This document shows positions 40,300 to 59,379 of a DNA stretch of 64,000 nt, one piece after another. This DNA comes from Candidatus Terraquivivens ruidianensis (GTDB lineage Archaea; Thermoproteota; Nitrososphaeria_A; Caldarchaeales; Wolframiiraptoraceae): positions 103,053-167,052 of the forward strand of contig JALNLA010000002.1 of the NCBI GenBank assembly GCA_023267975.1, read 5' to 3'. Under the pieces are notes generated by a model, which did not search any database, was not told where the DNA came from, and worked only from the letters and a program-made list of their open reading frames with translations. Positions within the stretch are counted from its first letter, which is position 1. Each line of letters starts with the position of its first letter. The translations under genes and the position numbers were made by a program.

Positions 40300-40391
40300 T
40301 GCTCCGGCCGGGATTTGAACCCGGGTCACCGGCTCGAAAGGCCGGTATACTTGACCGTTCTAGTGCAACCGCATGGCTATACTACCGGAGC
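40300..40391 (-). tRNA. tRNA-Glu(TTC) with 17-nt D-loop intron
   Basis: Acceptor GCTCCGG/CCGGAGC, discriminator A, no encoded CCA; anticodon loop CTTTCGA in stem CCGGC/GCCGG. The D-arm carries an extra ATGCGGTTGCACTAGAA (40358-40374); removing it restores the normal TAGTATAGCC-CGGTCAAGTAT. The site folds as a relaxed bulge-helix-bulge: bulges CCA and AAC, inner helix TGC/GCA, three-pair central helix TAG/CTA. Confidence 0.85.
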
Positions 40392-58508: not shown

Positions 58509-59016
58509 CTACGTAGACCACCTCGCTGAGAGGTCTCCTCTCTGGAGGATGTGGCCATTCTTCAGGATAGCCTAAGCTGACAATTATTACGGGCTCTAAA
58601 TTCTCCGGAAGCTCAAGGATTTCCCTTACTGCCAGCTTGTTGAAGGAGACTATCGGACATGACCCTATGCCGAGGCCGTATGCCATGAGCATCATGTTCT
58701 GGGTTGCCATAGACGCATCCATGATTGACATAGTATAGCCTATCTTTCCAGCTTTTTCGTACCTGTCCCTATCGACGCATACCACGACCAAAGCATCCGG
58801 GTTTCCGAACAGCCCCGGCGACACGAGCTTTATCTTCTTTATCAAGCCCGAATCCCTAACGAGGACGAACTGCCAAGGCTGTATGTTGCTTCCACTCGGA
58901 GCCCATATGCCAGCTTCCATTGTTAGCCTTAGATGATCCTCCGGAATCTTCTTCTCCAAGAACTTTCTGATGGACCTCCTTCCTTTTATTATGCTCAGAA
59001 GCTCCTTTGGTTCCAT
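58480..59016 (-). CDS. Nitroreductase-family flavoprotein
   Basis: 178 aa. LLSIIKGRRSIRKFLEKKIP, the FMN segment APSGSNIQPWQFVLVRDSG, and YGLGIGSCPIVSF and SLGYPEEWPHPPERR are typical. A paralogue of 18600-19190. Coupled to the DUF6092-like gene downstream. Confidence 0.9.
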   Translation of the reverse strand: MEPKELLSIIKGRRSIRKFLEKKIPEDHLRLTMEAGIWAPSGSNIQPWQFVLVRDSGLIKKIKLVSPGLFGNPDALVVVCVDRDRYEKAGKIGYTMSIMDASMATQNMMLMAYGLGIGSCPIVSFNKLAVREILELPENLEPVIIVSLGYPEEWPHPPERRPLSEVVYVDGYGKHYRG

Positions 59017-59149
59017 ACCACCAACGGTCTTTTGGTCGGATAAAACCGTTGCTGAGTGACTGAAGCGCCAATGTTCTATTAACGCCTCACGCTTCAGAAA
59101 AACTTTAAGAATTGCTTTTAAGAAATTTTTCTCTGCCCTGGAAAGGACT

Positions 59150-59271
59150 GCCCTAGCCCGATGGGCGGCAAGGGTAGTATAGTCCGGTCTAGTATCGGCG
59201 GCTGTCGCCCGCCGGACCCGGGTTCAAATCCCGGCCATGGGAAGGGTTGAAACCCTGCCCGCCGAGGGGCG
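59150..59271 (+). tRNA. tRNA-Asp(GTC) with two acceptor-stem introns
   Basis: Core: D-arm from TAGTATAGTCC, anticodon stem GGCGG/CCGCC with loop CTGTCGC (anticodon GTC), T-arm CCGGGTTCAAATCCCGG. The acceptor stem appears only after removing two introns. Intron 1, 59155-59172 (18 nt), between positions 5 and 6: helix TGCC/GGCA, bulges CTA and AGG, inner helix GCCC/GGGC. Intron 2, 59238-59266 (29 nt), between 68 and 69: helix CGGC/GCCG, bulges CAT and AGG, inner helix GGG/CCC. Spliced ends GCCCTGG and CCAGGGC are perfectly complementary; discriminator G fits Asp. Promoter-like TTTAAGAAATTTTT (about 59117-59130) precedes it. Confidence 0.9.
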
Positions 59272-59379
59272 CTAAAAATTTTTGAACCCGGGGAAAAGTA
59301 ACATAATTATTAAGAAAAAATTAAAATTAAGAAATTCATTTTATAAGGAACCTGTTTTTTAAAGAGCATAAGAATAGAC

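Follow-up and report, generated by a model that had tools for sequence, protein, structure and literature searches.

A tRNA-Asp gene with putative introns in both strands of the acceptor stem and a conserved trailer complementary to its T arm in Candidatus Terraquivivens

Results

The tRNA-Asp gene and its surroundings

The window analyzed (the whole 64,000-nt stretch of DNA) derives from a hot-spring Candidatus Terraquivivens species (Caldarchaeales, "Aigarchaeota") with a 1.30-Mb genome that is 97% complete. A tRNA-Asp(GUC) gene occupies positions 59150-59271 and is laid out as exon 1, intron 1, exon 2, intron 2, and exon 3 (GCCCT / agcccgatgggcggcaag / GGTAG...CCCGGCCA / tgggaagggttgaaaccctgcccgccgag / GGGCG; Table 1). 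The terminal exons are only 5 nt each. All exons stand in normal order on one strand and are contiguous within 122 nt; hence, this is not a split gene, the pieces of which would be transcribed separately from different loci. The joined exons form a 75-mer that ARAGORN calls as tRNA-Asp(gtc), with a perfect 7-bp acceptor stem and a discriminator G; the spliced acceptor strands (GCCCTGG...CCAGGGCG) pair without a mismatch. In the unspliced DNA, ARAGORN and Rfam also detect a tRNA, but its ends are displaced and its acceptor stem is weak (Rfam score, 36 bits). The first-pass annotation had proposed that a second, intact tRNA-Asp gene, coupled with no spliced product from this locus, would suggest a dead gene; a search of the 97%-complete genome turned up no further tRNA-Asp gene.

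Table 1. Coordinates of features at the tRNA-Asp locus (window numbering)
Feature	Coordinates	Strand	Basis or remark
TATA-like region (TTTAAG, 59104-59109; TTTTAAG, 59116-59122)	59104..59122	+	probable promoter
Second GCCCTGG (copy of 5' acceptor strand) in leader	59135..59141	+	seen in sequence
Leader -3 to -1 (ACT): outer helix AC/GT and first core pair of intron 1 BHB	59147..59149	+	BHB scan
Exon 1, tRNA positions 1-5 (GCCCT)	59150..59154	+	contiguous with GG in congeners
Intron 1, 18 nt, position 5/6	59155..59172	+	BHB scan; missing from five congeners
Exon 2, tRNA positions 6-68 (anticodon GTC, 59204-59206)	59173..59237	+	identical in genus over aligned part
T arm 5' strand and loop (CCCGGGTTCAAA), trailer partner	59217..59228	+	
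Intron 2, 29 nt, position 68/69	59238..59266	+	BHB scan; 6/6 in genus, 0/24 outside
Exon 3, tRNA positions 69-73 (GGGC and discriminator G)	59267..59271	+	
Trailer element (TTTGAACCCGGG)	59281..59292	+	exact complement of 59217-59228; identical in six species

Upstream of five of the six tRNA-Asp orthologues in the genus, ACTTTAAGAATT is found at a similar distance from the gene. Together with T59134, the leader copy of the acceptor strand makes a second donor-like TGCCCT, and the two TGCCCT sequences are 15 bases apart. At the corresponding site, four congeners lack GCCCTGG; their (T)GCC or ACC continues into a different sequence. An intron at position 7/8 or 6/7 that would use the leader GCCCTGG was ruled out, as it has no bulge-helix-bulge (BHB) motif. 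A match to the Rfam STAXI RNA at 59008-59180 was under the gathering score and was judged to be due to chance.

Two bulge-helix-bulge motifs

In the canonical archaeal BHB, the 5' exon pairs over 4 bp with the 3' part of the intron; a 3-base bulge flanks this core on either side, and each bulge is cut after its second base. Positions 59100-59330 were scanned for BHBs whose 4-bp core is entirely Watson-Crick and whose intron does not exceed 60 nt, and exactly two were returned. That of intron 1 is TGCC[CT/A]GCCC-gat-GGGC-GGCA[AG/G]GT (bulges bracketed, cuts marked by slashes). Its core is composed of leader T(-1), G1, C2, and C3 with GGCA close to the intron end; the bulges are CT/A and AG/G, GCCC and GGGC form the inner helix, and leader A(-3)C(-2) with G7 T8 forms an outer helix of only 2 bp. 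The motif of intron 2 is CC-CGGC[CA/T]GGG...CCC-GCCG[AG/G]GG, in which C63 G64 G65 C66 (CGGC, 59232-59235) pair with GCCG (59261-59264). The bulges are CA/T and AG/G, the inner helix is GGG with CCC, and the outer helix (C61 C62 with G70 G71) is likewise only 2 bp. Splicing at 67/68 instead would give CCGGGGC and create a T-G pair; ARAGORN accepts this tRNA, yet the cut breaks the BHB rule, which 68/69 fits.

From the sequence, it had been proposed that excising introns of 18 nt at 5/6 and 29 nt at 68/69 leaves exactly complementary GCCCTGG and CCAGGGC strands; the coordinates and the product both agree with ARAGORN and with the orthologues. The description of the BHBs as "perfect" holds for their fully Watson-Crick cores, but not for the 2-bp outer exon helices. 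Similarly, the introns "face" each other in that they interrupt opposite strands of the acceptor stem, but they are offset by one base pair (position 5 pairs with 68).

The motifs alone are not significant and could arise by chance, because dinucleotide shuffles yield an expected 0.46 BHB motifs per 231 nt. Chance is excluded because both cuts restore an acceptor sequence that is uninterrupted in other genera, and GCCCTGG is contiguous in the congeners. In ViennaRNA calculations, an 8-bp hairpin (ACTGCCCT/AGGGTAGT) was favored over the 5' BHB by ca. 12 kcal/mol at 37° C, and the 3' BHB, when enforced, was rare in the predicted ensemble. We speculate that the 5' BHB could avoid the competing hairpin by forming first during transcription.

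Distribution of the introns among relatives

The comparison set comprised six Terraquivivens species, i.e. that of the window and five congeners (among them Ca. T. yellowstonensis, G002, and Ca. T. tengchongensis, G005), and 24 orthologues from other genera and families. Every one of the six Terraquivivens species has the 3' intron, which none of the 24 outside orthologues shares; the 5' intron occurs in the window species only (1/6). The outside orthologues have neither intron, and those from the same family mostly feature an uninterrupted GCCCTGG...CCAGGGCG. In four congeners, an uninterrupted GCCCTGG is followed by TAGTATAG. The remaining congener (G004) also has an uninterrupted 5' strand and carries an insertion of ca. 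30 nt after GTATAG in the D region, with GTATAG on both sides. Given this distribution (6/6 and 0/24 vs. 1/6), the 3' intron is ancestral to the genus, having been gained before its radiation, and the 5' intron, which is seen in a single genome, was gained in the lineage of the window species. The comparison with relatives suggested in the first-pass annotation thus upheld both introns in the window gene but found only the 3' one to be old, the 5' one being species-specific. The series (no intron outside the genus, the 3' intron in all of its members, the 5' intron in one and a D-region insertion in another) documents recent, stepwise gain of tRNA introns.

A donor tRNA copy of the 18-nt intron was sought, and the best matches had 4 mismatches (own-genome loci compared) and 5 mismatches (rest of the window). 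Copying of this intron from another tRNA gene was therefore rejected, as no donor was seen among these sequences. On contig C34 of G004 (L036/L077), a tRNA-Asp-like 5' fragment (GCCCTGGTGGTATCGAGCTTGCATACGG) lies directly upstream of tRNA-Asp, and a transposase-like frame is located ca. 1 kb upstream.

A trailer element complementary to the T arm

Downstream of tRNA-Asp in all six species of the genus is TTTGAACCCGGG, the exact complement of CCCGGGTTCAAA in the T arm, a feature that was not part of the first-pass annotation. The complement is 12 nt long (13 nt in two species); the longest such complement elsewhere, i.e. in 30 other tRNA genes of the host genome and the 24 outside orthologues, is 8 nt. 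Other occurrences of TTTGAACCCGGG in each genome read as T-arm complements, and all of those in the window genome could be assigned to tRNA coordinates. The conserved stretch goes no further than the complement, and the flanking bases diverge between species. The gene that follows is fixC-like in three species (the window species, G003, and G004); in the other three it is a different gene on the opposite strand. Among 398 Thermoproteota genomes, a T arm with a downstream complement at this spacing was found in all six Terraquivivens species and in no other Caldarchaeales. A few genomes outside the genus had trailer-type hits; two at this spacing (G161 and G233) are reciprocal, which is typical of convergent tRNA pairs, and some of the others are suspected from their sequence to be such pairs as well.

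Inclusion of the trailer lowered the predicted folding energy by ca. 4-14 kcal/mol, and the 12-bp pairing was present in the minimum of all six species. In most species it also increased the predicted share of the 3' BHB (by as much as 300-fold at 37° C), although G003 at 70° C was an exception. The T arm is invariant, which puts the pairing beyond a covariation test. A short T-run precedes the element and could terminate transcription ahead of it.

Splicing and processing machinery

Two subunits of the EndA family of splicing endonucleases are encoded in the host genome. One matches an archaeal catalytic chain of the kind found in Aeropyrum pernix (E 3.6e-50; best PDB chains 3p1z and 3ajv, which we take to be the A. 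pernix splicing endonuclease), and the other has diverged, a combination that fits the heteromeric endonuclease type. K41 of the matching subunit aligns with residue 44 of the A. pernix chain; this lysine, K44, belongs to the loop responsible for broad specificity (PMC6379350). RtcB and RNase P RNA are also present in the genome.

Discussion

On sequence grounds, we consider it highly probable that this locus is a functional, and probably the only, tRNA-Asp(GUC) gene of its host and that it carries two acceptor-stem BHB introns gained stepwise. We propose that it matures as follows. A single transcript containing the leader and the trailer would be made. The trailer (TTTGAACCCGGG) would then anneal over 12 bp to the T arm's 5' half and block closure of that arm, leaving its 3' strand (61-65) free for the BHB of the 3' intron and also masking the minihelix read by RNase Z. 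The heteromeric endonuclease would cut both BHBs and RtcB would ligate the exons, presumably ahead of RNase P cleavage, given that the 5' BHB needs leader positions -1 to -3. The tRNA would finally refold with GCCCTGG paired to CCAGGGC, after which RNase P and RNase Z would trim the ends and CCA would be added.

The acceptor stem is normally read by RNase P and RNase Z. Because both of its strands are interrupted here and five bases are left at each end, the precursor RNA is almost certainly spliced before its ends are trimmed, an order that the first-pass annotation had judged probable. At the 5' end, this order is backed by anatomy: the BHB of intron 1 uses leader position -1 in its core and -2 and -3 in its outer helix, and RNase P removes these bases, so splicing should precede RNase P. 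For the 3' end, we infer the same order from the arrangement of the gene; an RNase Z acting first could read a false stem ending in CCATGGGA, which was also picked by the tRNA programs. The accompanying claim that the acceptor stem cannot form prior to splicing applies to the full stem, which is interrupted, but a partial one could form across the introns through pairing of G1-C4 with G69-C72 and of G6-G7 with C66-C67.

Other accounts of the gene were weighed. It might be dead or dying, with tRNA-Asp destroyed by the insertions and the tRNA supplied by another gene. The low score of the unspliced gene (36 bits) is in keeping with this, and another copy could be missing from a genome that is 97% complete; however, the tRNA body (exon 2), invariant in the genus over the aligned part, is identical to that of the congeners, the inserts are bounded precisely by the BHB cuts that rebuild the stem, and the search revealed no further Asp gene, all of which makes this account extremely improbable. 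Somewhat less so, but still very unlikely, is that the 5' exon is the GCCCT copy in the leader (59135-59139), followed by a 33-nt intron (59140-59172) and yielding the same mature tRNA. Although the leader TGCCCT pairs with the same GGCA and is a possible alternative donor, it has no proper inner or outer helix and was absent from the BHB scan, whereas the 18-nt motif is complete; moreover, it is the second GCCCT copy whose spacing from the promoter-like element agrees with that in the congeners. The least credible account is an assembly error. The 18-nt insert does occur in one genome only, but it makes up a full BHB, and cutting this motif regenerates the sequence of the orthologues, an outcome that errors would not produce.

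The role of the trailer is less certain than that of the introns. Its potential to pair and its conservation are observed, and we lean slightly toward a function in the RNA. The trailer can pair with and open the T arm, and the 3' BHB needs the 3' strand of this arm; sequestering the 5' strand of the T stem would thus be a sensible function. It may also hide the T arm from RNase Z. A more specific proposal, which we hold only tentatively and at slightly less than even confidence, is a dedicated cis antisense folding switch that takes apart the T arm of the precursor carrying it, such that the acceptor introns are spliced before trimming, and is then discarded. The element could instead act on DNA or on the neighboring gene as a promoter or terminator, its match to the T arm being incidental. 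Its position after a T-run and the fixC-like gene downstream in three of the six species (window, G003, and G004) would suit such a role. However, it is an exact 12-nt complement of its own gene in 6/6 species, the downstream genes differ, it is unique apart from T arms, and its conservation stops with the complement; a DNA element therefore seems rather unlikely. If the folding switch is real, it would amount to a chaperone for tRNA splicing encoded in the trailer, a kind that we did not find described, and the conserved trailer offers a testable means of holding a precursor unfolded until it is spliced.

Archaeal tRNAs are known to be interrupted by introns at a wide range of positions, among them 3/4 and, more generally, the acceptor stem (PMC4090602, PMC6379350, PMC12397907), and multi-intron tRNAs are known in Caldiarchaeum (PMC3293823). 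Acceptor-stem introns are thus familiar, as the first-pass annotation had stated, but the portions of these sources consulted do not mention precisely 5/6 or 68/69. The gene resembles the non-canonical BHB systems of Thermoproteales and Caldiarchaeum (PMC4090602, PMC3293823, PMC6379350) in its short introns, strict BHBs, 4-bp cores, 3-nt bulges, heteromeric endonuclease with the specific-loop lysine, and several introns per gene. It differs from them in being broken on both strands of one acceptor stem (5/6 and 68/69), in its 5-nt terminal exons, and in its conserved trailer complementary to the T arm. The 3/4 introns of certain Thermoproteales tRNAs also lie in the 5' acceptor strand and follow a very short first exon; their position differs, and no matching intron in the 3' strand is described in the available portion of that report (PMC4090602). 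The split tRNA-Asp(GUC) of Aeropyrum and Thermosphaera (PMC3218864) shares the isotype, joining at a BHB, and complementary segments outside the tRNA that unite its parts, but it is split at 37/38 into two transcripts, whereas the present gene is contiguous and is interrupted in the acceptor stem. Caldiarchaeum tRNA-Thr(GGU) (PMC3293823) belongs to the same broad lineage and likewise shows introns gained recently and 5' fragments of tRNAs close to tRNA genes; its introns are located at 24/25 and 45/46 and are associated with a recombinase element. No mobile element was seen at the tRNA-Asp locus within the window.

In the portions of the literature covered by our search, outside of which lay the key survey (Sugahara 2008) and a figure of all known positions, no report was found of both acceptor strands being interrupted, nor one of a trailer complementary to the T arm. 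With both acceptor strands broken, the gene is an apparent extreme of tRNA gene disruption, and for this reason the order of splicing and trimming is directly testable on one short RNA.

Observations were also made on other tRNA genes. Only 37 tRNA matches were obtained in the whole genome of the window species, and several isotypes may be masked by introns or splits. The tRNA-Glu(TTC) gene of the window (40301-40374, - strand) has an apparent D-loop intron of ca. 18 nt (..GTATAGCC/ATGCGGTTGCACTAGAAC/GGTCAAG..). In the tRNA-His genes of the genus (L083-L088), an intron of ca. 20 nt is located near position 10 in five species and is lacking in Ca. T. tengchongensis. The tRNA-His leader has the acceptor strand in tandem (GGCCGCGGTT GGCCGCGGTG) in all six species, with one base different in Ca. 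T. tengchongensis.
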